Shown piece by piece: positions 4,862-54,043 of a stretch of 64,000 nt of DNA; positions within the stretch are counted from its first letter, which is position 1; every line of letters starts with the position of its first letter. The position numbers and the translations under genes are program-made. The notes under the pieces are model-generated. The model saw nothing but the letters and a program-made list of their open reading frames with translations. It searched no databases and was not told the DNA's origin. Source of the stretch: Candidatus Scalindua japonica (GTDB lineage Bacteria; Planctomycetota; Brocadiia; Brocadiales; Scalinduaceae); NCBI RefSeq assembly GCF_002443295.1, contig NZ_BAOS01000045.1, positions 62,001-126,000 of the forward strand, in the 5' to 3' direction.

Positions 4862-4938
4862 TGGCACGCCCGGCAGGACTCGAACCTGCAACCATTGGAT
4901 TCGAAGTCCACTACTCTATCCAATTGAGCTACGGGCGC
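4862..4938 (-). tRNA. tRNA-Arg (anticodon TCG)
   Basis: On the minus strand the acceptor GCGCCCG pairs with CGGGCGT (a G-U closing pair). The anticodon loop is CTTCGAA (anticodon TCG). The T arm contains AGGTTCGAGTCCT. The 3' CCA is encoded, unlike in the neighbouring tRNA-Lys. Confidence 0.94.
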
Positions 4939-5109: not shown

Positions 5110-5598
5110 ATGAAATGGTATGCAATACATACAAGATCGAGACACGAAAAGCAGGTAGATTTATTTCTTGGTGAAAGAGGGATAGAGACATTTCTGCCAC
5201 TTGTTCACACTCTCAGTCGGAGGAAGGACCGGAAAGAGTATGTTGATATACCTCTTTTTCCCGGATATATGTTCGTATATGCGGATAAAGAGCGCCTGTT
5301 TGATGTTAAATATACGAGAGGTGTGACAAGGATAATTGGCACTGATGTGGATGTGCCTACACCAATACCGGAAAAACAGATACTGGATATAAAGTTTATC
5401 TTGGAAAGCGATGTTCAGCTGGACCCGTTTCCATACCTTCAAAAGGGTAGTATGGTAAGGGTGAAATCAGGGCCTCTCAAGGGGTTAGAAGGGGTTCTTG
5501 TTGAGAGAAAAGGTCATTATAAGCTCGTAATACAGATTGACCTTCTTCAGAAAGGTGCTGCTGCAGAAGTATTTATTTCAGATGTTGAGCCTGTTTAA
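5110..5598 (+). CDS. NusG-paralogue transcription antiterminator (UpxY/RfaH type)
   Basis: The 162-residue protein has a NusG N-terminal domain (WYAIHTRSRHEKQV at residues 3-16, PLFPGYMFVY near 48-57). A KOW domain follows at about residues 105-140 (KGSMVRVKSGPLKGLEGVLVE). Paralogues of this size at the head of polysaccharide loci (UpxY in Bacteroides, RfaH in enterics) keep RNA polymerase processive through long operons. Here it precedes about 58 kb of co-directional glycan genes, which supports that role. It is not the housekeeping nusG, as there are no rplK/rplA or secE neighbours. A good TATAAT sits at 5039-5044 upstream but lacks a convincing -35. Confidence 0.88.
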   Translation: MKWYAIHTRSRHEKQVDLFLGERGIETFLPLVHTLSRRKDRKEYVDIPLFPGYMFVYADKERLFDVKYTRGVTRIIGTDVDVPTPIPEKQILDIKFILESDVQLDPFPYLQKGSMVRVKSGPLKGLEGVLVERKGHYKLVIQIDLLQKGAAAEVFISDVEPV

Positions 5599-6147
5599 GT
5601 TTTTCGCTTGGTTGTTTTGTGTTGGCGTATGTTACAGGTGTTAGTATTGCTGTTAAAACAGGTTTGGTGTTTATCGGCCAAGGCACGGTTAAGTTTGTTG
5701 ATCAGAGTCTAAGTTGGGCACTGATAACGATACAGCACTGAATCCGGCAAGTAAGAAGTTGTTTGTGGAGGGAAAAAGGTCATCGCGGTGTAAATTCTGT
5801 TGCGTTGTGCGGTTTTTGTGGTATATTTGTTTTTTTTGTGTATAGTTTTCGGGCATTATATTTTACATATGATTCGTAATGAAATGCTCCTCATATTTCC
5901 ATCGCCTTGAGTTGTCTCAAAAAAGCTCATTTCAAAAGAGGTATATGGTTAAGATCATGATTTAAAATTTACTTTATATTTTTAAATTAAACTATTATAG
6001 AATATACAGTTAAAAGGTTTCTGGTAAATCCAGATTTTCATTTATAATTAAAATGTTTAAAGTGTTTTTTCTAGGGCATTCCGGTTGCCAAGTGAATGGT
6101 ATTCTGTTTGCTTAAGAATAATATTAAGAAATTAAGAAATAATAAGT
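5599..6147. other. Long non-coding leader region
   Basis: About 550 bases with no open frame or homology I recognise on either strand. It gets steadily more AT-rich toward the promoter at 6168. It may hold the downstream end of the antiterminator transcript. I see no strong terminator hairpin here and no ops/JUMPstart-like element. Confidence 0.5.
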
Positions 6148-6168
6148 ACTGTTTTTGATAAAAACAGT
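6148..6168. promoter_or_regulatory. 21-bp palindrome abutting a promoter, candidate operator
   Basis: ACTGTTTTT and AAAAACAGT are perfect 9-bp inverted arms around a 3-bp centre. The right arm ends on the first base of the -35 hexamer of the promoter at 6168-6196. This position is typical of a repressor or activator site. The binding protein is unknown. Confidence 0.5.
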
Positions 6169-6196
6169 TGACTTGCTATTGTATTTTTGTTATAAG
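6168..6196 (+). promoter_or_regulatory. Sigma70-type promoter for the exported CNA-B-like gene
   Basis: TTGACT (6168-6173) is followed after exactly 17 bases by TATAAG (6191-6196), each matching consensus at 5/6. This predicts a leader of about 150 bases before the ATG at 6356. Confidence 0.6.
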
Positions 6197-6355
6197 GACT
6201 TTACTTAGTTATGAAATGTTCTGTTGTCTTATGAGCATGTTTATACTATATACCTATCTTCTTGGCGATATCATTTAGAAGTTTTTGTGTGTTTAATGTT
6301 GATGTATAACAAGGGAATGTTAATTTTTATTTCAATTGGATGGAGGGAATTTGAA

Positions 6356-6865
6356 ATGCTGGGAAAATCTTATGTTTTTCGTTTAGTGATAATGTGTGCT
6401 GTTGGTATGCTTCCAATTTTAGGTTATGCCGGAAATACATTTGCGGCTAGCGTTGGTGTTATTAGGGGTGAGGTAACTGGGCAGAGGACTAATGCGTCAA
6501 TGGGTAATGTAGATGTACAGGTTACGGATCTCAATGGCAAGCTGGTGAAAAGCGTCAGAAGCCAGAAGGATGGAACATTTGCAGTTTCTCAGTTGCCTGT
6601 AGGTGAGTACAGGGTTATAGCTGGTAATGCTCCGGCGAAAAAAGTACAGGTTGCAATGGCTCCTCCTGTTACACAAGTTGACTTTCAGGTGCCTGAAAAG
6701 GGTTATACAGCTTTTGGGGGTATGGGTGCCGGATTGGTTGCAGTTGTGGGTTTGTCTGTTGCGGCAGCCGTTGCTGGAATCGTCATAGCTGTTAATGCTC
6801 AAGATGATGCGGATGATAATTCGGATGATTTGGATGATTTGCGTCAGCAACTTGCTTCACCATGA
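6356..6865 (+). CDS. Exported protein with a carboxypeptidase-regulatory/CNA-B-like domain
   Basis: I choose ATG 6356 over earlier in-frame starts because GGAGGGAAT lies 7 bases upstream and a clean signal peptide follows (MLGKSY, hydrophobic core, then GYAGNTFAA). The mature part, about residues 30-110, is one beta-sandwich repeat of the carboxypeptidase regulatory type (VIRGEVTGQRTN, VQVTDLNGKLVKSV, DGTFAVSQLPVGEYRVIAG). A single hydrophobic segment follows (about residues 120-145, GAGLVAVVGLSVAAAVAGIVIA), then an Asp-rich tail (DDADDNSDDLDDL). It is probably anchored in a membrane with the sandwich in the periplasm. Function is unknown; the position suggests a cell-envelope partner of the glycan exporter. 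It is followed by a strong terminator. Confidence 0.7.
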   Translation: MLGKSYVFRLVIMCAVGMLPILGYAGNTFAASVGVIRGEVTGQRTNASMGNVDVQVTDLNGKLVKSVRSQKDGTFAVSQLPVGEYRVIAGNAPAKKVQVAMAPPVTQVDFQVPEKGYTAFGGMGAGLVAVVGLSVAAAVAGIVIAVNAQDDADDNSDDLDDLRQQLASP

Positions 6866-6995
6866 TACACAATATAATATAGTGTGGCTTTTTTTGCGGT
6901 ACGCTTACTAGAGTAAAAGTTTTTTAGATTAGATGTTTTTGGTGGTTAGTATCTGTTTTATGAGATTAAATATATTAGTTGGGTAATATAATAAT

Positions 6996-7036
6996 AGCCC
7001 ACCTGTTAGTACTAATTAGACAGGTGGGCTTTATTT
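6996..7036 (+). terminator. Rho-independent terminator
   Basis: AGCCCACCTGT (6996-7006) pairs perfectly with ACAGGTGGGCT (7020-7030) around a 12-base loop and is followed by TTATTTCT. It ends the single-gene transcript of the upstream exported protein, so the next gene should have its own promoter or depend on antitermination. Confidence 0.88.
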
Positions 7037-7161
7037 CTATAAACAGATTCTGTTTCTGTAATATTTTAACATATTTTATGGTGCTTATAGTTTGGGTTGA
7101 TCGGTGTTCTTTCCTGTGAAAGGACGCTGGATTAATAAATTAACAGTTAAGGTAAGGATGT

Positions 7162-7686
7162 ATGCTAAAATTCCTCCGTTTGATGATTGTTGTCGTGGTG
7201 TTTTGTGGTGTTATCTGCCCTGTTTTTTCTAGTGTTTTTGCTGGGAAATATAAGCGAGATGATTTTTCGTTTGAAGTGCCTGATGAATGGGTAGAGATGG
7301 GTGCTATGAATATAAAAGGGGTAATAGCAGCTTTTACAAAAGAGATAGATGCGGAGGTAACACCTATTATATTGGTTGCTGTTAGTGACAGGCCTGTCGG
7401 TCGTACAATAAAAGAGGTAGTTGAGAATGCGGTAAATATAGTTACATCTACAATTCCTGATGCAAAATTCCTTTTTGAGCGGGATGTGTATACAGAAAAT
7501 GTAAAATGGCGTGAGATAATATATCAATATTCAGATGCAGGGTATTCATTCCAGGCTGTTCAATATCACACTATAAATAACAAAAAACATTATGCTTTTA
7601 CTGGACAGAGTCTTCAGTCAGATTTTAGAGAGTATCTTTCTGATTTTAGGAATACTTTCAATTCGTGGAAGTTTAAAGCAGATTGA
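7162..7686 (+). CDS. Exported PsbP/DcrB-like protein of unknown function
   Basis: The 174-residue protein begins with a signal peptide (MLKFLRLMIVVVVFCGVICP, cleavage likely after SVFA near residue 27). The remainder (YKRDDFSFEVPDEWVEMG, IIYQYSDAGYSFQAVQYHTI, FRNTFNSWKF) has the pattern of the PsbP/Mog1/DcrB fold. That pattern is an N-terminal 'F.vP.gW' strand and a C-terminal 'f..i..Sf' helix, seen in small secreted proteins of many bacteria. The exact biochemical role is not known. It lies just upstream of an FlgO-like lipoprotein and a metzincin in the export block. Confidence 0.6.
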   Translation: MLKFLRLMIVVVVFCGVICPVFSSVFAGKYKRDDFSFEVPDEWVEMGAMNIKGVIAAFTKEIDAEVTPIILVAVSDRPVGRTIKEVVENAVNIVTSTIPDAKFLFERDVYTENVKWREIIYQYSDAGYSFQAVQYHTINNKKHYAFTGQSLQSDFREYLSDFRNTFNSWKFKAD

Positions 7687-7771
7687 AGATAGCTTCAAAA
7701 GACATACAAAGAACACTCAATTATCATTAACAAGCACCGTTATATAAACCTCAGATAGTAAAGGATGATAA

Positions 7772-9724
7772 ATGTCTCATAAAAATTTACCATTATCGTA
7801 TATTCTCATTGTACTTTTCATGATTGTACCGTTATACGGTTGTAAAGACGGTATCAAGGCATTTGTTAAGAATAGAACAGGTAGTAGTGGTATTTACGAT
7901 GAAGCGGACTCTTCAGATGAGGATGACTTCTTTAGCGATACAGGTGGTAGTAATAATGAAGATGGGGCTGGTTATAGAAATAACACAAGTAGTGTTAATC
8001 GTGATTCTGTTTCTAAAACATCGTATAACACAAAAGGGTTTGGCAGGAGAAGGCGTTCTGTCATAGAAAGCGAGAAAAGTACTGCGGTAACACATTCTCA
8101 AAACATTTCTTTAACCAACGATACTGAGAATAGAAATCGTAATTTGAAAAAGGATAACAATGGGCCTCAATTAGCAAATAAAACAAAATCTGTTATTATA
8201 AATAAACACCCTGATTCAACAGCGAGATCAAATCCTTTGAATGCAAGTGGTAGGTCGAATAACGGTTCTGCCAGTGTCGAGAATAAGATTAAGGGCCTTG
8301 TTACGCAGATAGCAATGGCAGTACCTGCGACAGAAAAATTGAAAATATCAATAGTTGAATTTTCCAATTTTCATGGCGAGACTACAGATTTTACCACTTA
8401 TTTATATGAGGAGTTGGTTACTTTATTTTCATCAAATCCTAAATTTGAAGTGGTAGGCAGCACAAGTAAAATTGGCAAGAAAAGTGCAAAGATCGATGCA
8501 ATAGTGACAGGCTCAGTTATGGGTCTTGAAGATAACGTTAAGGTAAACGCGCGTCTCATGTTAAAAAGAACAGGTATGATTGTTACTGCGGTTTCAACAT
8601 CGTTGCCAAAAGATAAGGCAATAGAGAGGTTGATGGAAAAGAAACATAAAGCCATTAGTGTCAAATCTGAAGGGGATGATTTGTATTCCAAAATTGATGA
8701 CCTGGCTGGGCAGATAGTTAATTGTCTGCAACAAGGTAGAAAATATAAATTAGTCTTGCTTGAATTTACCGATATGAATGGAAAGACCAGTACATTTAGT
8801 AAATTCTTATTTCAGGAGTTAGTAACAAGGCTTTTTCTTGCTAACAATAAAAAGATTGAAATAGTAGACAATAATATTATCAATGAATTTATAAAGGAGC
8901 ATCATATCTCCTTACAGGAGTTGCCTTATCCTGAGTCTTCTAAAAAACTTGCTGAATCTCTTGGGGTAAATTGCATAGTTAAAGGGGTTATTACAGATTT
9001 GGGTAACAGCATAAAATTAAATACCCGTGTAATAACCGCAGAGACTGGTTCTATGTTTGGTGTTGCGGCGGTTGATATTGAGAAGGATGAGAAATTGGCA
9101 AAATTGTTGAGTGAAAAACATAAAGTTGCAAGTTTTGATACTGGAAAAATTGAAACAAAAATTGATGTAGATATAAAAGAAGAACATGCATCGCTCGGGG
9201 CTGCTGATTATGGTACCGTTTTCTTCGAAGAAGACTTTACAAACTATGATGATGGACAGCCTCTTCAGGTGTGGGGTGAAGGCCTGGTTGTCAGAAAAGA
9301 TGAAAGTGATAAATATTTTCTAACCTCGGATGTTGATGATTTTTCAGTTGCCAGTCGTGATATACAATTTCCTGATGAGTTTTCATTTGAATTTGAGGTG
9401 AAAGGGAGCACTAAATATTGGAGCTCAATAAGGTTTAAAGATTCTGATGGTAGTGTGTTTTCCGTGTCATTTCGTCTTTTTCAGGATGTTCTGAGTATAA
9501 CCTTTCCAGGTCCAAAACAGGTTAAAACGGAGATTGATGTGAATAACTATTGTAAGATCAAGATTGTAAGAAAAAATAAATTATATGAACTGCATACGAA
9601 TGATTCACTACTAATAGTAGGTTCATATTCAAAATATAAGACATTTAACTCTTTCGAAATTCACAGTGCATTCAATAGATTTCAGTTTGCCGGTTTTGTA
9701 GCTAATAATTTGGTAGAAAACTAA
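7772..9724 (+). CDS. Lipoprotein with two FlgO-like domains and a C-terminal beta-sandwich
   Basis: Residues 1-24 form a lipoprotein signal (hydrophobic core, then VPLYGC with Cys24). A low-complexity Ser/Asn/Asp-rich linker runs to about residue 165. Two homologous alpha/beta domains follow, near residues 185-290 (LKISIVEFSNFHGETTDFTT, YLYEELVTLF) and 320-445 (YKLVLLEFTDMNGKTSTFSK, FLFQELVTRLF). Both end in '.vkG.v..lg..ikln.R....etG', the FlgO/CsgG-type pattern. From about 480 a jelly-roll-like region starts with VFFEEDFTNYDDGQPL, as in laminin-G/3-keto-disaccharide-hydrolase-like domains that bind glycans. It is probably attached to the outer membrane and linked to glycan export. The duplicated FlgO arrangement is unusual. 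Confidence 0.65.
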   Translation: MSHKNLPLSYILIVLFMIVPLYGCKDGIKAFVKNRTGSSGIYDEADSSDEDDFFSDTGGSNNEDGAGYRNNTSSVNRDSVSKTSYNTKGFGRRRRSVIESEKSTAVTHSQNISLTNDTENRNRNLKKDNNGPQLANKTKSVIINKHPDSTARSNPLNASGRSNNGSASVENKIKGLVTQIAMAVPATEKLKISIVEFSNFHGETTDFTTYLYEELVTLFSSNPKFEVVGSTSKIGKKSAKIDAIVTGSVMGLEDNVKVNARLMLKRTGMIVTAVSTSLPKDKAIERLMEKKHKAISVKSEGDDLYSKIDDLAGQIVNCLQQGRKYKLVLLEFTDMNGKTSTFSKFLFQELVTRLFLANNKKIEIVDNNIINEFIKEHHISLQELPYPESSKKLAESLGVNCIVKGVITDLGNSIKLNTRVITAETGSMFGVAAVDIEKDEKLAKLLSEKHKVASFDTGKIETKIDVDIKEEHASLGAADYGTVFFEEDFTNYDDGQPLQVWGEGLVVRKDESDKYFLTSDVDDFSVASRDIQFPDEFSFEFEVKGSTKYWSSIRFKDSDGSVFSVSFRLFQDVLSITFPGPKQVKTEIDVNNYCKIKIVRKNKLYELHTNDSLLIVGSYSKYKTFNSFEIHSAFNRFQFAGFVANNLVEN

Positions 9725-9734
9725 TATCACAAAC

Positions 9735-11243
9735 ATGAAAATCAGGTCCATCGGTTTTCCAACACTCCGTCAGTACGGTTTGCTTTCTTGTTGCAGGTTT
9801 ATGACTTACAAAACTTATAGACAGGTTAGCGGCCATTTAAAATCTTTTTCTTTGATTAAAACAATCCGAAATTCTTTTCTAGTATTAATTACAATTGTCA
9901 GTGTGATTTCCTTTTTTATTGCTTTCTGTGCAGTACTCGGATATGCAGGAAATAATAACATTAGGGTAATTAATGTAAAGGTTGTTGCCGATGAAGAATT
10001 CAGGGCAAGTGATGAGTGGGTAGATGTGATAGTGGAGAGTTTTAAAAGAACATCTGCTTTTTATGAAGAACAATTTGGTATTAAGTTTAATTTGAAACTG
10101 ATTGGTGAGTGGATTTCGGATAATAATTCCTTTAATATTCAGTCTCTTCTAGAAGAGCTAAGTAATAATGTTGGAAAGGATGGTAGCGAATTAGTTGTTG
10201 GTTTTACTAGACAAGTTTCAAAGTCTCTTAAATGTGTTTTCAGTCGTCCAGCGTTAGGGATTGCACTGCCGTTTAATGATTATGTCATTGTAAGAGCAGA
10301 CAGAAAGAAAGGCTTTGATTATCACATAATGTCGTTAATATTAACCCACGAGTTGGGCCATGCTTTTGGGGCGTTGCACGTCCGTGACTCTACTTCTGTT
10401 ATGAATATATCGGTTAACAATCATACTGTTTTCCGGTTTGATGATAGAAACAGCAAGCTAATCAGATTGACAAAGTTTGTAGATTTTAATAAAGGTGTTA
10501 CTTCATTAAAAAAGAGCTGTCTTGAACAAATAATTGGTTTATATAGAGATGGCTTCGAAGTCGATTATGAGAACGCGACCAGACACCTGCTGATTGGTTC
10601 TATATTCAGTGAACAGGGAATGATAGATGAAGCTATTTTGGAATATAAGGAGGCTGTTAAAATAGACCGGAAAGACCCGGAATCACTTACGCGCCTTGGT
10701 GTTGCATATGCAGGCAAGGGGTTATTGGATGACGCAATAAAGGTGTTAAGTAAGGCCGTCAGGCTTGATTCGATTAATGGAGCGGCCCATGTTAACCTTG
10801 GTATGGTGCTTGTCAGAAAGGGTAAACAGGAAGAGGCGATAGACCATTTGAGGAAAGCTATAGAAATCAATAGTATTAATCCTGAAGCTCATTGCATTTT
10901 AGGTGGTATATATATCCAAAAAGGATTATTCGATAAGGCTATTTTTGAGTGTAAGAAGGCTTTGGATTATAACCATATCTATTCTGATGCCTATTATAAT
11001 CTGGGTATTGCTTATCACAGTAAATTGATGTATGATGAAGCTATAACTGCATATAAGAAAGCAATTGAGATAGAATATAAAAACACTATGGCGAGAAATA
11101 ATCTAGGTTTGGCTTATTATGAACAGGGAATGTTAGAAGAGGCAGAATCTGAATATATTAAATTATTGAGGGTTGATCCCGGAAATCAAATGGCGCTTAA
11201 TAATTATCAGGCAGTATTATTTGCAAAGAAGGAGGGGTTATAA
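9735..11243 (+). CDS. Membrane-anchored metzincin-type zinc metalloprotease with TPR repeats
   Basis: Residues about 48-72 are a transmembrane or signal segment. The catalytic domain follows, with zinc site HELGHAFGALH near residues 204-214 (HExxHxxGxxH) and a Met-turn TSVMNIS about 15 residues later, both defining metzincins. From about residue 275 to the end there are roughly six TPR motifs (for example EAILEYKEAVKIDRKDPESL and DAIKVLSKAVRLDSINGAAH), ending in LRVDPGNQMALNNYQ. It starts 10 bases after the lipoprotein gene, and its stop overlaps the wza start by one base, so it is co-translated with the exporter. The protease domain should face the periplasm. The substrate is unknown. Confidence 0.8.
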   Translation: MKIRSIGFPTLRQYGLLSCCRFMTYKTYRQVSGHLKSFSLIKTIRNSFLVLITIVSVISFFIAFCAVLGYAGNNNIRVINVKVVADEEFRASDEWVDVIVESFKRTSAFYEEQFGIKFNLKLIGEWISDNNSFNIQSLLEELSNNVGKDGSELVVGFTRQVSKSLKCVFSRPALGIALPFNDYVIVRADRKKGFDYHIMSLILTHELGHAFGALHVRDSTSVMNISVNNHTVFRFDDRNSKLIRLTKFVDFNKGVTSLKKSCLEQIIGLYRDGFEVDYENATRHLLIGSIFSEQGMIDEAILEYKEAVKIDRKDPESLTRLGVAYAGKGLLDDAIKVLSKAVRLDSINGAAHVNLGMVLVRKGKQEEAIDHLRKAIEINSINPEAHCILGGIYIQKGLFDKAIFECKKALDYNHIYSDAYYNLGIAYHSKLMYDEAITAYKKAIEIEYKNTMARNNLGLAYYEQGMLEEAESEYIKLLRVDPGNQMALNNYQAVLFAKKEGL

Positions 11244-12394
11244 TGAGAAAATCTCTAACAAGGTTAAAATGGCAAACAATTTGCGGGCTTATGATTGTTT
11301 GTTTGTTGTTTTCTTACTGTAGCTGTATTTTCGCTCAGACAGTCTATAACATGTCTCAACATTCACAATCTACTCAAGGTGTTCCGGGTGGAGTTGGATA
11401 CAATAGCAACTCATTACTGGGACAGGATTATTTGATTGGGCCCGGAGATGTGCTTGACATAAAAATATTTGATTCGGAGGATTTAAACAGAACGGTACGT
11501 GTTGGGGGGGATGGTTATATATCATTACCGTTGATAGGCAGTATAATCGCCGGTGGCTTGAACGTTTCTGAGCTGGAGTTTAACATGGCCTATGAATATT
11601 CAAAGAAATATTTGCAGAATCCCCAGATTTCGGTATACGTCCAGGAGTTTCACAGTAAAAGGGTGGCAGTACTGGGTGAAGTGAAAAACCCGCAATTGCT
11701 GGAAATGACAAGAAACAGTAGTAATCTTCTGGAGATGATAAGTTTGTGTGGTGGTGTTACTAAAGATGCCGGAGATTTGATTTATATAATACGCCATACA
11801 GAACAGTATGACGCTTCTGGCAGGAGTGATGATACCCATGCGGTTCATTATAGTAACACAGATGATAGAAGTTATGGAAGAGTAACTGAGGATGTCCATG
11901 GGTCCAATGGTAGTTGGGATGAAGAAGACTATTTACAGGCCAGGGATGAGGTAATTACTGTAAATATCTCAGAACTGGTTAAATATCAGAATCCTCTTTC
12001 AAACGTGGATATTCTGCCTGGTGATATGATAAGCGTTCCTCCTGCATCTTTCTATTTTGTATTTGGGGAAGTGGACAAACCAGGCGCTTTTCAGTTAAAA
12101 ACGAATATGACTGCATTACAGGCTTTATCACAGGCTGGCAGTTTCTCAAGTGTTGCAAAAAATAAAATCAAATTGATAAGAGAAGATCTTGAGAATAGAG
12201 AGAAAATTATTACTACTTTAGATGTTAGGCGATTAGCAAAAGGTGAGGATGAAGATGTTAGAATTATTGGTGGAGATGTTCTTCTTGTCGGTAAGAGTAG
12301 TTTTAAAGAGGTGCGTAATCAATTATTGGCCTTCTCAAACTCTGCCGTTACGGCCTTTACAACTGCCTATGCATACGACAGTTTCCGAGATTGA
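11243..12394 (+). CDS. wza: Polysaccharide export outer-membrane protein (Wza family)
   Basis: The 383-residue protein has an N-terminal signal with possible lipobox (FSYCSC). A polysaccharide-export domain follows (LIGPGDVLDIKIFDSEDLNR, VGGDGYISLPLIG) at about residues 65-130. Then come two SLBB domains (RVAVLGEVKNPQLLEM near 137 and FYFVFGEVDKPGAFQLK near 270). An Asp/His/Tyr-rich insert of about 50 residues (DASGRSDDTHAVHYSNTDD) splits the first SLBB and is atypical. Wza forms the outer-membrane pore for exopolysaccharide and works with the Wzc-type kinase encoded next. Confidence 0.92.
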   Translation: MRKSLTRLKWQTICGLMIVCLLFSYCSCIFAQTVYNMSQHSQSTQGVPGGVGYNSNSLLGQDYLIGPGDVLDIKIFDSEDLNRTVRVGGDGYISLPLIGSIIAGGLNVSELEFNMAYEYSKKYLQNPQISVYVQEFHSKRVAVLGEVKNPQLLEMTRNSSNLLEMISLCGGVTKDAGDLIYIIRHTEQYDASGRSDDTHAVHYSNTDDRSYGRVTEDVHGSNGSWDEEDYLQARDEVITVNISELVKYQNPLSNVDILPGDMISVPPASFYFVFGEVDKPGAFQLKTNMTALQALSQAGSFSSVAKNKIKLIREDLENREKIITTLDVRRLAKGEDEDVRIIGGDVLLVGKSSFKEVRNQLLAFSNSAVTAFTTAYAYDSFRD

Positions 12395-12642
12395 TATTAT
12401 AGGAAACTACCACTTATTGCGAGTTCCTGACATGTCCGTTTGAATGACAGTAGGTCTGTCGAGTTTAGGGGGATATTGTTGTGTCTTTGTGTGAGCCGAA
12501 TTTATTATTTGATGTTCAATATGTGTTGTTTATTTATTTAGATAGGTGTTCATTCACTTTATCCAGGCAACAAATAATTAATTACTTTTTGAATTATGTT
12601 TAGCAGAACCAGGAAACAAGCAACCATAGAGAGCTAAATCCT

Positions 12643-14850
12643 ATGAATAACGATTCATTTCTAAATCAAACCCAAGACCCTTCTAATTATTATAGCGGCA
12701 AGACTTCCTCTCTTGATGAGATACATCTCAGGGATTACTTTCGCGTGGTTATGCACCGTAAATGGGTAATTGTTGCCATTTTTACAATTACAGTGCTGTT
12801 GGTTACGCTCTATACGTTTAAACAGAAACCTATATTTCAGGCAGTTACAACTATCAGGATATTTAAAGAAGCGCCAAAGGTACTCTCCTTCGAAGAGGTG
12901 ATGAGTACAGAAGGAGGACGGACTGATTTCTACAAAACTGAATGTGAGGTATTAAAAAGCCTTACACTTGCCAAGAGGGTGGTTGACAGTTTAAGGCTTG
13001 ACTTGGATCCGGAGTTCATAGGCAATAGCAAAGCTTTAGATGGAAGTGTTAATAAATCAGTTAGTATGGACAGACTGGCAAGACAACTTTTGGGGAGGAC
13101 AGAAATATTGTCTGTCAGAAATAGTCAATTGGTGAAGATTAAAGTTAGCACAGGATATCCTGAACTATGTAAGAAAATTGCTGATACTATAGCAGATGAG
13201 TACATTAAAAAGAACCTTGAAGACAAAGTTCTGACTACTTCGGGCGCAACAGATGAGATAGTTGAACAATTGAAAGAGATTAAGATAAAGATCGAAGATT
13301 CAGAGAAAAAATTGTATAAATATGCACGTGAGAATGATATCGTTGCCATGGATGCAAGCCAAAGTATAATTTTGAAAGAACTGACTACAATCTCAGATGA
13401 ATTGACAAGGGCGGAGGCAGAACGTATTGGCAAAGAGATCAGGTTTCTGGCAGTACAGAATAGTGACGACCTTTCTTCTTTACCGGGGATAGCAGATAAT
13501 AAATTAATTAATGAATTGAAGTTGGAATATACGAGGCTTAATGCAAAGTATGCCAGTGAGCTTGGCAGAGTCAAGGAAGATCACCCGCTGGTGCAGAGGC
13601 TTAAGACTGAAAAAAGTCTTATCGAACAGGAGATAAAGGATGAACAGGGGTGGCTGGGGAAGGCAATTAAGGCAGAGTATCAGGAGGCTGTTGGTAAAGA
13701 AAAAGGTCTTCGGCAGCACCTGGAGGAGCTTAAAAGGGAAAACAATCGATTGGAAGGGAAATCAATCAGTTACAAGGTGCTGAAACGTGAGGTGGATGCA
13801 AATACACAGCTATACGAAGGGCTGCTTCAAAGGATGAAGCAGGCAACCGTATCGTCACAAATAAAGACTACAAATGTTCAAATAGTTGATAGGGCGGCAT
13901 TGCCTACCAGACCTGTTAAACCAAAAAAAAGGTTAAATGTGTTCCTCTCTATGGTTGTAGGGTTGGTAATGGGAACAGGTATTGCCTTCTTTTTAGAATA
14001 CCTTGATAATACAATTAAAAGCGCAGATGATGTTGAGAAACATCTTAATGCTACAGTACTAGGTGTATTAGAGAAGGTAGAAGTGGAGAGGGATGAGGTG
14101 GAGAACTTTGATACCATTTTGCACGAATTACCCAAGTCAACATTTGCGGAAGCAGTGCGTAATGTAAGGACCGGTATCATGCTGTCATCTGCAGATAATC
14201 CCAAGAGGATAATGCTGGTTACAAGCACGACTCCCAGTGAGGGAAAAACATTTGTAGCGAGTAACCTTGCTATTGTAATAGCTAAGACCGGCAAGAAAAC
14301 ATTGATTGTGGATTGTGACTTTCGTAAGCCCAGGGTGCATAAAGCCTTTAATATTCAGATGATGCCTGGTTTAACTAATCATATTCTTGGAGATAATGAT
14401 TTGGATTCAATCATTAAACATACGGCCATTCCTAACATCAGTGTTATTACATGCGGCCTTATTCCGCCAAACCCTTCGGAGATGTTGGGGTCTCACAGTA
14501 TGGAAAAATTTTGTAAGGAGATAATGGATAGGTTTGATACTGTAATACTTGATACACCTCCTGCTATGGCAGTTACTGATACAATTGTTCTCTCTAACAT
14601 GGTTGACGGAATAATTTACGTAATCAAATCAGGTAAGATATCAAAAGAATCTGCCAGAAGGTCTCTCCATCAATTTGCAGGTAAAAAGGCTGAAGTGTTG
14701 GGTGTAGTTATAAATAGTGTAGATGCTGCCAGGGGCGACTTTTATGGGTATGGGTATGGGTATGGGTATGGTGTGGAGGAAAAGGGGAAAAAGGGAATAA
14801 TAGAGAGAATGAAGTGGACGAAGGGAAAAGAAAAGGTAGAAAATACCTGA
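12643..14850 (+). CDS. wzc: Polysaccharide co-polymerase with tyrosine autokinase domain (Wzc type)
   Basis: This 735-residue protein contains a Wzz chain-length domain with a first transmembrane helix near residues 41-60. A long periplasmic coiled coil (about 195-400) and a second helix near 430-452 follow. The cytoplasmic BY-kinase has Walker A (TTPSEGKTF, about 528), Walker A' (LIVDCDFRKP, about 554) and Walker B (VILDTPPA, about 635). A tyrosine cluster GYGYGYGYGYG sits at about 700-710 near the C-terminus and is the expected autophosphorylation tail. It controls chain length and export with Wza. The 248-base gap before it has no recognisable feature. Confidence 0.95.
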   Translation: MNNDSFLNQTQDPSNYYSGKTSSLDEIHLRDYFRVVMHRKWVIVAIFTITVLLVTLYTFKQKPIFQAVTTIRIFKEAPKVLSFEEVMSTEGGRTDFYKTECEVLKSLTLAKRVVDSLRLDLDPEFIGNSKALDGSVNKSVSMDRLARQLLGRTEILSVRNSQLVKIKVSTGYPELCKKIADTIADEYIKKNLEDKVLTTSGATDEIVEQLKEIKIKIEDSEKKLYKYARENDIVAMDASQSIILKELTTISDELTRAEAERIGKEIRFLAVQNSDDLSSLPGIADNKLINELKLEYTRLNAKYASELGRVKEDHPLVQRLKTEKSLIEQEIKDEQGWLGKAIKAEYQEAVGKEKGLRQHLEELKRENNRLEGKSISYKVLKREVDANTQLYEGLLQRMKQATVSSQIKTTNVQIVDRAALPTRPVKPKKRLNVFLSMVVGLVMGTGIAFFLEYLDNTIKSADDVEKHLNATVLGVLEKVEVERDEVENFDTILHELPKSTFAEAVRNVRTGIMLSSADNPKRIMLVTSTTPSEGKTFVASNLAIVIAKTGKKTLIVDCDFRKPRVHKAFNIQMMPGLTNHILGDNDLDSIIKHTAIPNISVITCGLIPPNPSEMLGSHSMEKFCKEIMDRFDTVILDTPPAMAVTDTIVLSNMVDGIIYVIKSGKISKESARRSLHQFAGKKAEVLGVVINSVDAARGDFYGYGYGYGYGVEEKGKKGIIERMKWTKGKEKVENT
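14743..14772 (+). repeat. Hexanucleotide repeat encoding the Wzc tyrosine tail
   Basis: Four exact TATGGG units are followed by one TATGGT. They encode alternating Tyr-Gly in the kinase tail. Perfect short repeats can gain or lose units by slippage without changing frame, so the number of phosphorylatable tyrosines could vary between strains. Confidence 0.85.
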
Positions 14851-15013
14851 AATCGAATTCGTATTTAATATGATTTTAATTTTGTTTCTTGTTTGATGTA
14901 TGTGCTGGTAGTTTCAAGTCGTAAGGATTGACCTTTGGCAGATGTAAGTCATATGACAGCGTAGCCGTAATTTTGTTTCACATCAACTTTAACTGACCGT
15001 GAACGAATAACTA

Positions 15014-16555
15014 ATGTTAACAAGATTTCCTTTAATTGCCGATAGAGTCATAGAGTGGGGTATTATCTTTCTTTTAGTATTTACACCACTTGCGTTACCA
15101 ACAAGGTATGGTCTTCTGCACCTTTGGGTCTACACGATAATAGAGATAACAATATTCGTTTTAGTAATAATATGGTTACTTAAGCGGATTATAATTGCGA
15201 TAAATGCAAACTCTGATCTCCGAATTCCAAACTCTATAATTATCAATCGCTTCGGTTTTGTAAAAACTCCTCTGAATATTCCAATTATATTGTTTGTTGG
15301 TCTTATTATACTTCAGCTTATACCGCTTCCGCCGGGTGCTCTCAAACTGCTAAGTGCCAATACGTATTATCTATATCAAAACAGCAACCCGTTACCGGCA
15401 ACCCGCAACCAGAACTTAGAAATTTCACCTACAAAATTACCAATCTCCAATGAGCAACCTGACATCCAAACTCAGCGGTCTGAAATCAGTGATTGGTTGC
15501 CAATCACTATCTATCACTACGCTACTAAATCAGAGTTTATCATGATCCTTGCATATATAGGCATGTTTTTCCTTGTTACGAATACACCAGGTTTAAGAAT
15601 AGATCGTTTTTTGCTTATTATTATGGGTGTAGGATTCTTTGTCTCTTTTCTGGGTATTTTACAGAAATTTGCTGGTGCTGATAAGATATACTGGTTATTA
15701 GATTCACCTGGTCCGAGCTTTTTTGGTTCTTTTATAAATCGTAACCATTTTGCCGGTTATATAATAATGGTAATACCACTCTCTTTGGGTTTGCTGATCT
15801 CCAGATTTGGGAGTATTACATTTCATAAGACTATGACATGGCGAGTAATTTTTACAGAATTTGAATCTCATATTCTTGGTAACGGTTTATTGGTATTCGC
15901 CATTATGATTATGGTTTCTGCTTTATTCCTTTCGCTGTCACGTGGAGGCATATTGTCATTTGCTGTTACAATAGTTGTGTTTGTGACCATTATCAGTCTC
16001 AGTAGAAAAACCAGGAGTATTATAAGTAAAGGACGCAAGGTAACGATCATTACGTTGTTTCTGGCTTTTATACTTCTTGTTTGGCTTGGTATTGGTCCTG
16101 TCATGGAAAGATTGTCTGATATTTCGTCACCTGACAGGAATCAAGTCTTTCAAGATACAATTGATATGACCAAAGATTTTCCTCTTCTTGGGTCTGGGCT
16201 TGGTACCTTTCAGCACCTTTTTCCGAAATATAAAACCCTGGAGAGGCAACAATTTTATGACCATGCACATAATGATTATGTCGAACTTTTATCAGATAGC
16301 GGTCTTATAGGGTTTATTTTAATAATAGGCAGTATTATCATATTTATCAGGAAGATATTGGTTAGATGGTGGGAAAGGGGAGACTCTTTTGCTAAAGGTG
16401 TTACACTCGGAGGATTTTGCGGGATTATTGCGATCCTTTGCCACAGTGTTACGGATTTTAATCTGCATATTCCGGCCAATGCTCTTTTCCTCTCTTTTCT
16501 TCTTGGCCTTACATGGAACGCTGTCAATCGGGAAAGTAGTTATAATGAGAATTAG
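15014..16555 (+). CDS. O-antigen ligase/polymerase family membrane protein (Wzy_C)
   Basis: The 513-residue protein has about 10-12 hydrophobic segments. The Wzy_C signature occupies roughly residues 200-440, with FGSFINRNHFAGY near 235 and the periplasmic loop HAHNDYVELLSDSG near 418. Such proteins polymerise lipid-linked repeat units or ligate glycans to a carrier. An odd polar insert of about 45 residues lies near 120-165 (NSNPLPATRNQNLEISPTKL), between helices. A TPR gene follows directly, an arrangement common for ligase/polymerase pairs. A second polymerase candidate lies at 42918-44387. Confidence 0.85.
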   Translation: MLTRFPLIADRVIEWGIIFLLVFTPLALPTRYGLLHLWVYTIIEITIFVLVIIWLLKRIIIAINANSDLRIPNSIIINRFGFVKTPLNIPIILFVGLIILQLIPLPPGALKLLSANTYYLYQNSNPLPATRNQNLEISPTKLPISNEQPDIQTQRSEISDWLPITIYHYATKSEFIMILAYIGMFFLVTNTPGLRIDRFLLIIMGVGFFVSFLGILQKFAGADKIYWLLDSPGPSFFGSFINRNHFAGYIIMVIPLSLGLLISRFGSITFHKTMTWRVIFTEFESHILGNGLLVFAIMIMVSALFLSLSRGGILSFAVTIVVFVTIISLSRKTRSIISKGRKVTIITLFLAFILLVWLGIGPVMERLSDISSPDRNQVFQDTIDMTKDFPLLGSGLGTFQHLFPKYKTLERQQFYDHAHNDYVELLSDSGLIGFILIIGSIIIFIRKILVRWWERGDSFAKGVTLGGFCGIIAILCHSVTDFNLHIPANALFLSFLLGLTWNAVNRESSYNEN

Positions 16556-16619
16556 TAATTAATAGTCTCCTGATCTCCTTATAGACATTTCTTTTACTGT
16601 TGTTTATGATAATTTTAAG

Positions 16620-17774
16620 ATGCTTAGGACAAAATCAATACTCAGGCCAGAGATATTTCTCACTTTCTTTCTTATTGTTCTTACAATATTAGTGTCTGTC
16701 TTTGTTGTTAAAAATTTTGCTGGCAATCTATACTATCATAAATGGGAAGGTTTGCCTCAGAGAGATGAGGATAGTATTGCCATTCTGGAAGACAAAACGG
16801 CAAAGTTTATTCCATCTAAATCAGATACTTTTTATCAACTGGGGAAATATTATCACAATAAAGCGTTTACCGCTGATTCTCTTGAGGAACAGTTGGAAAT
16901 ATTCAAGAAAGCAGAGCAATTTCTAACCAGGGCAATCTTGCTACAGCCTGGCAATAGCTACTATCTGGCAGAATATGCGCGTGTGGTTGGTAATCAGGGA
17001 GATGCTGGCATGGCGATCAACTATTTTGAAAGATCAACAACTTTGTCAAGAACAGACGCTCTTATTCACAAGATTTATGCAAGGTGGTCCCTCTATCGTG
17101 CACAGAGTGTTTTCAGGATTGAAGATTTGGACTTCCTTGTAAAGATGTACAATAATCCGGAGCAGACGATTCCCTTTTATGAAGAGCGTTTGATTGACGG
17201 AATTATGACTAAGACATTTATAAATATTGCTGAAAGGGAATGGGGTGAGGTACTGCGGTTAGGTATTCCAAAGAGTCGGAGAACATACAGAAACCTTGGC
17301 GATTTGTATATGATGACATGTAAGCTTAATAAAGCAATTGAAAATTATAGACATTCAGAAAGTAGTATTAGATTAATAAACAGCTATTTTATTAAACAGG
17401 ATTTTACAACTCTTTTTAGTGTGGTTAAACACATTATAGGGGCAAAAAATCGTGTTTTCTTATCAAGATGGGATGAAATCAGAAAGCTTCTTGAAAGGAT
17501 TACTATTTTCGACAGAAATAGTTATGAAGCATTTTACTGGTTGGGTCAAGGACATTATCAACAAAACATGTTCAATGAGGCGATTAATGTTTTGGAAAAG
17601 GTGACAACCCTGAAACCTGATCATGTAAATGGACATTTGTTTCTTGCTAAATCATATGAAGCTGTAAAAAAAAGTGAGAAGGCTATTCATGAATATACAG
17701 AGGTTTTAAAACTAAAACCAGGCCATAAAGAGGCAAGTGAACTACTCAGTAGAGCCATTAAAAGCAAATTATAG
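16620..17774 (+). CDS. Membrane-anchored TPR protein next to the polymerase
   Basis: The 384-residue protein has one N-terminal hydrophobic helix (ILRPEIFLTFFLIVLTILVS, residues about 6-27). TPR-like helical repeats follow near residues 60-140 and, more clearly, 300-380 (EAFYWLGQGHYQQNMFNEAI, AIHEYTEVLKLKPGHKEASE). It is probably a periplasmic scaffold for the upstream Wzy/ligase protein. Function beyond protein binding cannot be read from the sequence. Confidence 0.7.
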   Translation: MLRTKSILRPEIFLTFFLIVLTILVSVFVVKNFAGNLYYHKWEGLPQRDEDSIAILEDKTAKFIPSKSDTFYQLGKYYHNKAFTADSLEEQLEIFKKAEQFLTRAILLQPGNSYYLAEYARVVGNQGDAGMAINYFERSTTLSRTDALIHKIYARWSLYRAQSVFRIEDLDFLVKMYNNPEQTIPFYEERLIDGIMTKTFINIAEREWGEVLRLGIPKSRRTYRNLGDLYMMTCKLNKAIENYRHSESSIRLINSYFIKQDFTTLFSVVKHIIGAKNRVFLSRWDEIRKLLERITIFDRNSYEAFYWLGQGHYQQNMFNEAINVLEKVTTLKPDHVNGHLFLAKSYEAVKKSEKAIHEYTEVLKLKPGHKEASELLSRAIKSKL

Positions 17775-18139
17775 ATTATATCCAGTTAGTAATCAGGTTA
17801 CTGCATTCTTTGGCAAGAAAGATAATATTCATTAAACGGTAAAGAGTGCAAATGAGATTATGCACAGTGAAAGGTACATACAAACTGGATAAAGTGCTCC
17901 AATTATAAAAAAAGAATCAAGAAAATAGTAAATAACCATTAATTCATGGACGAAATATATATAATTTTACAATTTCCTTATGAAAAGGGTATGATAAAAA
18001 CTGCGCTGGAGAGATACAACTATTTTTTTCTTTCAGCAACAAAAACTAAGTAGAAAAAAATATAAATGAGTCTTCGGATACTCGATAAAAATATCGTTTC
18101 TGGTTCTTATATTATCTGTTGGTAGATAGCAATTGCCCC
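17775..18139. other. AT-rich intergenic region
   Basis: About 365 bases with no supported gene. It separates the export block from the epimerase gene. I see no terminator hairpin with a T-run, and the downstream part contains the promoter listed next. Confidence 0.5.
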
Positions 18140-18167
18140 TTGACAAACAGTGGCAAACACATAGAAT
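18140..18167 (+). promoter_or_regulatory. Sigma70-type promoter for the UDP-glucuronate epimerase gene
   Basis: A perfect TTGACA (18140-18145) is followed after 16 bases by TAGAAT (18162-18167, 5/6). The distance to the ATG at 18234 predicts a leader of about 60 bases. Confidence 0.6.
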
Positions 18168-18233
18168 ACATAAAAAATTTTCATTAAAGCCAAGAGAATT
18201 ATAAACATTTCATCATCCCCAAGAAAGAACACA

Positions 18234-19235
18234 ATGACATATTTAATAACAGGTGCTGCAGGTTTCATAGGTTATCATTTATCCAGGCGTTTGCTTGAGC
18301 AAGGGAAAAGCGTTGTTGGGGTTGACTGCCTCAGCGAGTATTATGATGTCAATCTGAAAAATGCCAGGCTGAATGAACTTAAAGGAGATCCGGGCTTTAC
18401 TTTTTGTAAATTAGATTTGGTGGATCGTGAAGGGGTTGAACAGTTATTTACGGTAAATAAGTTTGATTATGTTGTGCATCTGGCTGCTCAACCCGGAGTA
18501 AGGTATTCACTCTCTAATCCTCATGCTTATGTTGACTGTAATATTGTTGGCTTCTTAAATATACTGGAAGGGTGCAGGTACAATGATATCAAACATCTTG
18601 TTTTTGCCTCTTCAAGCTCCGTTTATGGGGCTAATACAAAAATGCCATTTTCAGTTCACCATAATGTAGACCATCCCGTTTCCCTTTATGCAGCTACAAA
18701 AAAGGCAAATGAACTTATGGCCCATACTTATTCGAGTTTGTACAAAGTACCGTGTACGGGACTAAGATTTTTTACTGTATATGGTCCGTATGGGAGGCCT
18801 GATATGGCCCCGTTTTTGTTTACCAGGGCAATATTGGAAGGTAAACCTATTGATGTGTTCAACTACGGAAAGATGAAGAGGGATTTTACTTATATAGATG
18901 ATATTGTGGAAGGTGTTACCAGGTTAATCGAAAAGGTACCGGAGCCAAATCCGAGTTGGAACGGTGATGAACCTGACTCCGCGACAAGTTATGCTCCGTA
19001 TAAATTGTACAATATTGGAAATAATAATCCTGTTGAACTCATAAAGTTTATTGAGGTATTAGAGGATTGTCTTGGGCGGAAGGCAGAGAAAAATCTTCTA
19101 CCACTGCAACCTGGTGATGTGCCAGGTACATATGCTGATGTAGATGAATTGACTAACGATATTGGTTTTAAACCTTCCGTTCAAATTGAGGAAGGGATTA
19201 AGAAGTTTGTGGAATGGTATTGGGAGTATTATTAA
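18234..19235 (+). CDS. UDP-glucuronate 4-epimerase-like NAD-dependent sugar epimerase
   Basis: This 333-residue extended SDR has TGAAGFIG at residues 6-13 for NAD binding, SSSSVYG near 125 and YAATKK with catalytic Tyr/Lys near 150-154. The motifs [15 protein letters not shown] (residues about 33-47), [15 protein letters not shown] and [19 protein letters not shown] distinguish UDP-glucuronate 4-epimerases (UDP-GlcA to UDP-GalA) from UDP-glucose epimerases. It likely supplies galacturonate for the exported glycan. It has its own promoter at 18140. Confidence 0.88.
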
Positions 19236-19650: not shown

Positions 19651-20004
19651 ATGAAATATCTTGAAGAAACAGTAAAATTGCTTAATCATATTCAAGATAA
19701 TCCTGATTCGACTCAGCGGGAACTGGTGAAAAAACTTGATTTTAGTTTGGGGAAGGTTAACTATCTCATTAAAACACTCACAAAGAGAGGGACCATCAAA
19801 CTGGAAAGATTTAAAAAATCAAGTAAAAAGGCTGGGTATCTGTATCTCCTTACACCAAAAGGAATACAGCAGAAAACTGAAATAACGAGAATATTTTTAA
19901 AGCAAAAATTGAATGAGTACGATAGGCTTCAAGAGGAAATTCAGATTCTTTCAATTGAATTAGATAATGCTGGAGAGAAAAGGAATAATAATAAGATATG
20001 TTAA
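19651..20004 (+). CDS. EPS-associated MarR-family transcriptional regulator
   Basis: The 117-residue protein carries a winged helix-turn-helix (residues about 4-75, DSTQRELVKKLDFSLGKVNY, LIKTLTKRGTIKLERFK) and a C-terminal coiled coil (about 83-112, KQKLNEYDRLQEEIQILSIE). The size and the 'QRELAkkLgiSLGKvNYllkaLi.KG.ik...F..s..K..Y.YlLTP.Gi' pattern fit the small MarR subfamily found next to exopolysaccharide genes. It probably regulates this locus. The inverted repeat at 19586-19617 is a candidate autoregulatory site. Confidence 0.85.
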   Translation: MKYLEETVKLLNHIQDNPDSTQRELVKKLDFSLGKVNYLIKTLTKRGTIKLERFKKSSKKAGYLYLLTPKGIQQKTEITRIFLKQKLNEYDRLQEEIQILSIELDNAGEKRNNNKIC

Positions 20005-52213: not shown

Positions 52214-54043
52214 GTGAGTAAGGTACGAATTAAAAAGCTCAGAATTAAGTTACTTACATTTTTTCGACTTGGCTTAATAAATATTGTCATTGTACTCGTT
52301 TATCGTGTTCTTAAACGAATTGGCTATTATCGATATCGGCTTTTGATTGGCTTGCCACTGGAAGGATCACTCTATAGTGATGAAGCAATGCTAACCGATA
52401 AAAGTGTATTGTTGTATTATTTTTTATATCATAAAATGGAAGTATCATCACCGCCAGATTGGTTTGTCAATCCCTGGAGTGGTTCGAGATATGAGAATGT
52501 TAGCTGCCATTGGTCAGATATACCGGACTTTGTACCGGAACTGGGTGATATTAAAACAGTTTGGGAGGCTTCGCGTTTTGATTGGTTGCCGAAAATGGCG
52601 TGGGCTTATCAACAAGGTGATACCGAATCTTTGAAAAGATTAGAGTTCTGGTTGCGGGACTGGGCTATCCGTAACCCAGTGAATGGGGGAATTAACTGGA
52701 AGTGCGGGCAGGAGGCCTCATTGCGTTGTCTTAATTTGCTGGTGGGTGCATTGGCTATTAATCGTGTTTTTGAAGATCCACCGCATCCGGCTTTTTTAAA
52801 GTTACTTTATATCCATTTGCAAAGAATAGTACCGACTGTCTATTATGCCATGGCGCAGGATAACAATCACGGTATCAGTGAAGCAGCGACACTGTTTATT
52901 GTTGGACACTATTTGTCTAAGAATGGGAACAGGGAGCAAATAGAACAAGGAAGCAAGTGGGCACGCAAGGGGCGGTATCGGTTGGAGAATCGAGTTGCAC
53001 ACCTGATATTAGCAGACGGCAGCTTTTCCATGCATTCAGTGACCTATCATCGTTCGATACTGGATGTTTTGTCTTTGACGGAATTGATGCGCTCTCGACT
53101 CAAAATTTCTGAATTCAGTGACACATATTACAGTCGAGCAAAATTGGCGGTTAAATGGTTTTATGGAATGATGGATATTCAAAGTGGTGATGCTCCAAAC
53201 CTGGGATCTAATGATGGTACCCACCTGTTCAATCTTGACGGAACACCTTATAGAGATTTTAGACCAAGTCTACAATTAGCTTCGGCTTTATTCTTAAAGA
53301 GAGCAATATGGGTAGAAGAGGTTACCCATCCTTTACTTGATCTATTTTCAATAGATCTCAATAATCTTGCGCCACTTAAGGCAACTTCGTCGAAACTTTT
53401 CTCTGAAGGGGGATTTGCAAGGATTAATCATGAGGCAGGGTTTGCTATGTTACGTCTCCCCGTTTATAGCTTTCGACCCAGCCACGCCGATGCCTTGCAT
53501 TTGGATGTGTGGTATAATGGTGTAAATTGGATCAGGGATGCTGGCTCTTATAGTTATAACGTAGATGATACTAGCCTGGAGTACTTTCCTGGAACAGAGA
53601 GTCACAGTACAGTATGCTTTGATGGGCATGATCAGATGCCCAGGTTGGGGCGCTTTTTGTTTGGCGCATGGTTAAAGCCAGATGTGCTTGAGTTTGATGC
53701 ACAAAAAGGTTATGTTAAAAGTGGATATACTGATTATTTAGGTTCACATCATACCAGAGAGTTACGTCGTGCGGCGAATGGATGGCGTGTGGTTGATGAT
53801 CTGGGTGGATTTAAGAAGGAAGCTGTCATTAGATGGCGGTTAGCACCTGAAAAGTGGCTCTTGGATGGACAGGCCCTGTCATGTGACAGTGTGAAACTTG
53901 AAATTAATACTGAAATCGCAGTTGTATTGAAATTAACTGAGCAGTTTGAATCTCGCTACTACTTGCAGAAAAAGTTGATTCCCGTATTGGAAGTGATCTG
54001 TCACCAACCTGGGAGAGTAGTAACTCATATTCAGCTGGCTTAA
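52214..54043 (+). CDS. Heparinase II/III-like polysaccharide lyase family protein
   Basis: The 609-residue protein (GTG start) has an alpha-toroid N-terminal domain with NWKCGQEASLRCLNLLVGAL, AQDNNHGISEAATLF (catalytic Asn/His) and FSMHSVTYHRSILD (Tyr/His). A C-terminal beta-sandwich has PSHADALHLDVWYNGVNWIR and DAGSYSYN. No signal peptide is visible. Such proteins in capsule and EPS loci cleave uronate-containing chains or trim misassembled polymer. It fits with the UDP-glucuronate epimerase and the amidotransferases in the same locus. Confidence 0.88.
   Translation: MSKVRIKKLRIKLLTFFRLGLINIVIVLVYRVLKRIGYYRYRLLIGLPLEGSLYSDEAMLTDKSVLLYYFLYHKMEVSSPPDWFVNPWSGSRYENVSCHWSDIPDFVPELGDIKTVWEASRFDWLPKMAWAYQQGDTESLKRLEFWLRDWAIRNPVNGGINWKCGQEASLRCLNLLVGALAINRVFEDPPHPAFLKLLYIHLQRIVPTVYYAMAQDNNHGISEAATLFIVGHYLSKNGNREQIEQGSKWARKGRYRLENRVAHLILADGSFSMHSVTYHRSILDVLSLTELMRSRLKISEFSDTYYSRAKLAVKWFYGMMDIQSGDAPNLGSNDGTHLFNLDGTPYRDFRPSLQLASALFLKRAIWVEEVTHPLLDLFSIDLNNLAPLKATSSKLFSEGGFARINHEAGFAMLRLPVYSFRPSHADALHLDVWYNGVNWIRDAGSYSYNVDDTSLEYFPGTESHSTVCFDGHDQMPRLGRFLFGAWLKPDVLEFDAQKGYVKSGYTDYLGSHHTRELRRAANGWRVVDDLGGFKKEAVIRWRLAPEKWLLDGQALSCDSVKLEINTEIAVVLKLTEQFESRYYLQKKLIPVLEVICHQPGRVVTHIQLA

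Follow-up and report, generated by a model that had tools for sequence, protein, structure and literature searches.

Envelope genes of varied combination at polysaccharide-export (OPX) loci in Candidatus Scalindua japonica and related Brocadiales

Results

Genes at the head of the polysaccharide cluster

The window (the whole 64,000-nucleotide stretch of Candidatus Scalindua japonica DNA analysed here) holds a Scalindua-type (Brocadiales) polysaccharide cluster, the first part of which contains the following features.

5110-5598, + strand: UpxY-type (NusG/RfaH family) antiterminator (NCBIfam UpxY, 131.3 bits against a cut-off of 100)
6168-6197, + strand: promoter-like TTGACT-17-TATAAG, a consensus match only, in register in three Scalindua species in a leader alignment
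6356-6865, + strand: small secreted protein of the CarboxypepD_reg type, CpdReg (Pfam, 38.3 bits, above cut-off)
7162-7686, + strand: PsbP-like secreted protein (Pfam PsbP, E=1.7e-4, slightly under cut-off)
7772-9724, + strand: lipoprotein with two FlgO-type domains and a C-terminal lectin-like jelly roll (Pfam FlgO, AlphaFold model, Foldseek)
9735-11243, + strand: exported metzincin (HELGHAFGALH) fused to TPR repeats (Pfam Reprolysin_5, TPR)
11243-12394, + strand: long OPX (Wza-type), 383 aa, with Poly_export, two SLBB stretches and a C-terminal segment of ~35 residues (Pfam)
12643-14850, + strand: Wzc-type polysaccharide co-polymerase with a tyrosine autokinase domain (Pfam Wzz, GNVR, AAA_31)
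15014-16555, + strand: Wzy_C (polymerase/ligase family) membrane protein (Pfam, E=4.4e-23)
16620-17774, + strand: membrane-anchored TPR protein, found together with Wzy in most of the cassettes read

The four ORFs singled out by the first-pass annotation (7162-7686, 7772-9724, 9735-11243 and 11243-12394) are all present and colinear on the + strand, with the domains that it described. Their spacing is tight (9724/9735/11243), and the stop codon of the metzincin-TPR gene shares one base with the start of the OPX gene (junction TAATG). From 6356 to 17774, a consensus scan of the + strand returned nothing that resembles a terminator. Rfam matched no leader RNA anywhere in the window, but only two tRNA genes (1330-1403 and 4865-4938, - strand) upstream of the cluster, the second immediately before the antiterminator gene. 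The antiterminator (5110-5598) is regulatory and lies outside the envelope set; its position marks the head of the cluster. It is also kept beside the cassette in loci L005 and L109, the latter from a sister species with a barrel-type cassette (below).

Several other genes deserve mention in their own right. A Heparinase II/III-type gene (52214-54043; Hepar_II_III_C, E=3e-23) lies within the biosynthesis cluster and may encode a polymer-editing enzyme, and a small winged-helix (HTH_24/MarR) protein is encoded at 19651-20004, with distant relatives near the Wzy cassettes of L112, L114 and L115. A second OPX gene (contig C45, 127671-127895; Poly_export, 68.7 bits) lies 1.7 kb past the end of the window, and the source genome (G000) gives five OPX matches in all, so several export systems are present.

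A long, tailed OPX and its alternative in sister species

The OPX encoded in the window has the domains of a Class 1 OPX: Poly_export (E=4.6e-21), two SLBB stretches and matches to Wza in the PDB. In six long OPX proteins the ~35-residue tail aligns in length and place with the Wza_C segment of E. coli Wza, with little identity, and may be its counterpart. With the E. coli Wza-Wzc system the locus shares the Poly_export and SLBB domains of the OPX, a C-terminal OPX segment as long as Wza_C, the tyrosine-kinase Wzc, Wzy_C and a large glycan biosynthesis cluster. Unlike that system, it has extra genes in front of OPX (CpdReg, PsbP-like, FlgO2-lectin lipoprotein, metzincin-TPR), and the OPX of the three set-bearing Scalindua has no clear lipobox. 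The OPX, Wzc and TPR proteins also score against the NCBIfam models for XrtA/exosortase-associated EPS clusters (EpsE, PrsT), all below the equivalog cut-off.

Sister Scalindua species have something different at the same place. In the readable neighbourhoods of G191, G200, G193 and G194, the OPX is 237-264 aa long and stops right after the SLBB domain (where sequence was read), the Wzc is different, and a BBP2_2 beta-barrel gene adjoins. These cassettes fit the composite OPX/beta-barrel translocon (EpsY/EpsX, VpsN/VpsM; PMC9601211, PMC9603273), for which an OPX of <=280 aa lacking the C-terminal helix and a nearby barrel gene are diagnostic, whereas the window holds the opposite arrangement, a tailed OPX of 383 aa and no BBP2_2. 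Across the loci read, none of the six tailed OPX genes has BBP2_2 at its locus (G000, G190, G195, G154, G106, G203; BBP2_2 gave no match in any of these genomes, or for G106 at the locus), while all nine others have it within ~10 kb (G191, G200, G193, G194, G201, G165, G178, G172, G170; the OPX of G201 and part of that of G165 were classed by length and position only). This anticorrelation (Fisher p=2e-4, uncorrected for relatedness) matches the published OPX/barrel dichotomy.

The two kinds of cassette, seen by comparing window positions 5110-19235 with L109-L112, are alternative OPX/Wzc/accessory sets with the same epimerase and antiterminator genes nearby. Identity between the two kinds is 80-83% for the neighbouring epimerase and 38-49% for Wzc. 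In the Wzc tree the set-type Scalindua group with G106, G203 and G154 of other families (98/100; G203 and G154 are long branches) and the barrel-type Scalindua form a separate group (100/99), so that Wzc phylogeny follows cassette type and not species. In the Wzy tree, Scalindua of both kinds stay closer together; a Wzy relative is retained in five other Scalindua genomes, among them the four whose neighbourhoods could be read. Exchange of OPX, Wzc and accessory genes together between species is the simplest reading, the alternative explanation of the Wzc cassette tree being old paralogy with differential loss. The barrel-type loci have a conserved accessory of their own, a 162-aa secreted protein with no Pfam family that precedes the BBP2_2 barrel (L109 1070-1558, L110 2287-2775).

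Recurrence of the accessory genes at export loci

Gene order proved to be conserved in related genomes: CpdReg, PsbP-like, lipoprotein, metzincin-TPR, OPX, Wzc, Wzy and TPR protein follow one another identically in the source genome and in two further species of the genus, with the records SMSL01000006.1 (Brocadiaceae bacterium S225) and JAIQZR010000072.1 (Scalindua sp. OFTM180), our genomes G190 and G195. The proteins of the set are 59-75% identical between the window and these two, the metzincin gene overlaps the OPX gene in all three, and a UpxY-type antiterminator lies upstream of the set in one of the two further records.

Of the 62 Brocadiales genomes analysed, seven have the full lipoprotein (G000, G190, G195, G154, G165, G167, G178), always inside an OPX-Wzc-Wzy locus; metzincin-TPR occurs in four, each time directly 5' of OPX; and the PsbP-like gene occurs in four, in every case within an OPX-Wzc-Wzy locus. 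Full-length CpdReg relatives were found in the same four genomes as the PsbP-like gene and nowhere else among the 62. This fifth gene (6356-6865; start codon set by comparison with homologues), which the first-pass annotation had left out, is part of the set, and the set begins there.

The proposal of a fixed four-gene module did not survive this comparison. G106 has metzincin-OPX-Wzc-Wzy-TPR and lacks the lipoprotein; in G154, CpdReg-PsbP-lipoprotein-Wzy runs divergent from OPX-Wzc and there is no metzincin; and the Brocadia types (OPX-Wzc-Wzy-TPR-lipoprotein) have only the lipoprotein, downstream of the Wzy and TPR genes. The set is modular, and metzincin and lipoprotein separate. Nor does a long OPX need the set, since G203 has such an OPX with none of the set adjoining. 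We also considered the set as a strict replacement for the barrel and rejected this, because the clusters of Brocadia G165 and G178 combine the lipoprotein with BBP2_2 and because of the G203 arrangement.

Such variation, together with the apparent swapping of cassettes between species, is what would be expected if these were unrelated envelope genes riding in an exchangeable polysaccharide cluster and sharing its promoter. We think this quite unlikely: beside OPX, three families have these same genes in varied orders and orientations and at 23-48% identity, which would hardly happen without selection for linkage. The recurrence at OPX loci of lipoproteins with identities down to 23% indicates a genuine linkage to export of long standing. 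It is not phylum-wide, since in other planctomycetes (G391, G221, G027, G052) the distant homologues of the metzincin have no OPX adjoining. In profile searches of 392 genomes of the phylum, the full architecture of the lipoprotein was confined to Brocadiales and the other matches were FlgO-only; profiles were needed, as a single-sequence search of the phylum gave only weak FlgO matches. A FlgO pair in G228 was set aside, its neighbourhood being without OPX. The concern that the genes might be peculiar to one genome, or have homologues linked to flagella or pili instead, can be dropped: in the Brocadiales loci read, the genes of the set lie with OPX and not with flagellar or pilus genes.

The lipoprotein and the small secreted proteins

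The lipoprotein gene is single-copy in the source genome. Its product has a lipobox cysteine (Cys24) followed by a variable, disordered linker of ~140 residues (modeled with very low confidence) and then the folded domains. In E. coli, lipoproteins without Asp after the lipid-bearing Cys are sorted to the outer membrane; here Cys24 is followed by Lys, and by this rule the protein is probably anchored in the outer membrane. The Brocadia relatives have no clear lipobox.

The tandem FlgO-like domains of the first-pass annotation hold up well. FlgO scores 33.3 bits against a Pfam cut-off of 22.6 and is found in 7 of 7 relatives, and the AlphaFold model contains two FlgO-type domains (~168-290 and 304-447) with a similar order of secondary structure elements. 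By sequence, its PDB relatives are FlgO chains, of which each entry contains 58, as in a ring. FlgO and FlgP lipoproteins form the outer-membrane-associated H-ring that helps the flagellum across the outer membrane (PMC7990780). The protein described here shares with the FlgO/FlgP, CsgG and LpoB lipoproteins the FlgO domain above cut-off, the FlgO/LpoB fold (in the model) and a lipoprotein signal, but it differs from the single-domain, flagellar-linked FlgO in its tandem domains, long linker, jelly roll and location at a polysaccharide-export locus.

In Foldseek, the best single-domain fold match is the C-terminal domain of LpoB (TM 0.79 by target length), and the order of anchor, linker and domain is similar too. 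The lipoprotein might then act as LpoB does, activating a wall synthase or opening the wall for the exporter and so controlling peptidoglycan synthesis at export sites. We give this only a slim chance, given that the FlgO/LpoB/CsgG fold is common to several unrelated lipoproteins, that the sequence match is to FlgO and not LpoB, and that two domains plus a jelly roll are unlike LpoB.

The C-terminal jelly roll (residues 483-650) is modeled with high confidence, and its Foldseek matches are CBM66, galectin and galectin-like folds, at moderate TM scores (about 0.45-0.57 by target). The model and these matches lend substance to the possible glycan-binding sandwich noted at first pass, and we infer from them that the lipoprotein may bind glycan; Pfam gave no lectin match for this domain.

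A lectin-like domain invites the chief rival to a role in export itself, namely that the lipoprotein holds finished polysaccharide at the surface in the manner of Wzi while the rest of the set shapes the surface layer, no member belonging to the translocon. Several observations suit this: some cassettes do without the set, the Brocadia lipoprotein gene sits after Wzy/TPR, and the lipoprotein is absent from the only cluster read that has a Wzi gene (G172). By tblastn with the G172 Wzi, the window itself has no match to a Wzi-like (Caps_assemb_Wzi) barrel. Surface retention would, however, leave the FlgO domains and the metzincin-TPR unexplained, as well as the constant position of the metzincin gene directly 5' of OPX and its overlap in all three Scalindua, and the lectin resemblance itself is limited by the Pfam result and the TM values. 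We regard it as a real but minority possibility.

The PsbP-like protein scores 22.1 bits, below the Pfam gathering score of 23.5, with the domain aligned nearly whole, and its PsbP profile returned no PsbP from the PDB. CpdReg combines a signal peptide, the CarboxypepD_reg-type domain, a C-terminal Gly/Ala-rich hydrophobic segment and a charged tail.

The metzincin-TPR protein

Pfam assigns Reprolysin_5 (E=3e-9) to this protein, along with six stretches of TPR. The HEXXHXXGXXH zinc motif and the Met-turn are intact in all four examples (the window, L004, L005 and L035), and by these motifs it is a predicted protease. The structure model of the metzincin domain is of low confidence and too poor for judging the cleft; the best 50 Foldseek matches were all TPR or other helical-repeat proteins and included no protease.

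In its layout the protein resembles BepA, which acts in outer membrane assembly quality control: both are exported and have a zinc metalloprotease followed by TPRs. BepA, however, is an M48 protease, whereas the zinc motif here is that of a metzincin; no M48 peptidase was among the 25 Pfam matches listed, the peptidase matches being Reprolysin/Matrixin, and the likeness is thus one of analogy only.

Discussion

The genes described here probably have an accessory role linked to export. The reading that we prefer, with roles inferred and at what we would call an even chance, is that they form the outer-membrane-side accessory set of an exporter of the Wzx/Wzy type, for exopolysaccharide or capsule, with a long, Wza-like OPX. 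The lipoprotein would be anchored in the outer membrane, with a linker long and flexible enough for its two FlgO/LpoB-fold domains to extend to the periplasmic OPX ring and form a collar around it, while the jelly roll would grip the emerging polysaccharide chain. The metzincin-TPR protein would be a periplasmic protease that helps the OPX/lipoprotein complex to assemble or controls its quality, a role like that of BepA but with another protease fold, and the PsbP-like and CarboxypepD_reg proteins would be further periplasmic or outer membrane helpers.

These parts do not all carry the same weight. Because FlgO lipoproteins form a ring elsewhere, a collar on the OPX is a reasonable guess, no more, and collar or docking alike seem to us rather doubtful; the protease role, though also short of even, is a slightly better prospect. 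Linkage alone would also fit co-regulated surface proteins that never touch the OPX. Further still from what we would expect is the boldest version, a new outer-membrane stage in which FlgO/CsgG-superfamily lipoproteins with lectin domains form a ring or collar on a long OPX, are maintained by the metzincin and are exchanged as a cassette against OPX/beta-barrel translocons among anammox (ammonium-oxidising) species; we consider that improbable.

The route of the polymer across the outer membrane has been solved for Wza; for OPX/barrel pairs an answer has only recently been proposed. Within the literature searched, no paper combined FlgO with polysaccharide export. What is new here is that sister Scalindua species with a short OPX and BBP2_2, and set-bearing species with a long, tailed OPX and no BBP2_2, have these alternatives at the same locus. 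The recurring mix-and-match envelope genes beside OPX, where sisters carry a barrel, suggest that a familiar export machine has an accessory variant not described before. Close anammox relatives with two alternatives at one locus make a natural comparison of which accessory proteins go with which translocon, and the set provides concrete candidates for building the anammox capsule or biofilm matrix, which is relevant to granule formation in wastewater treatment.
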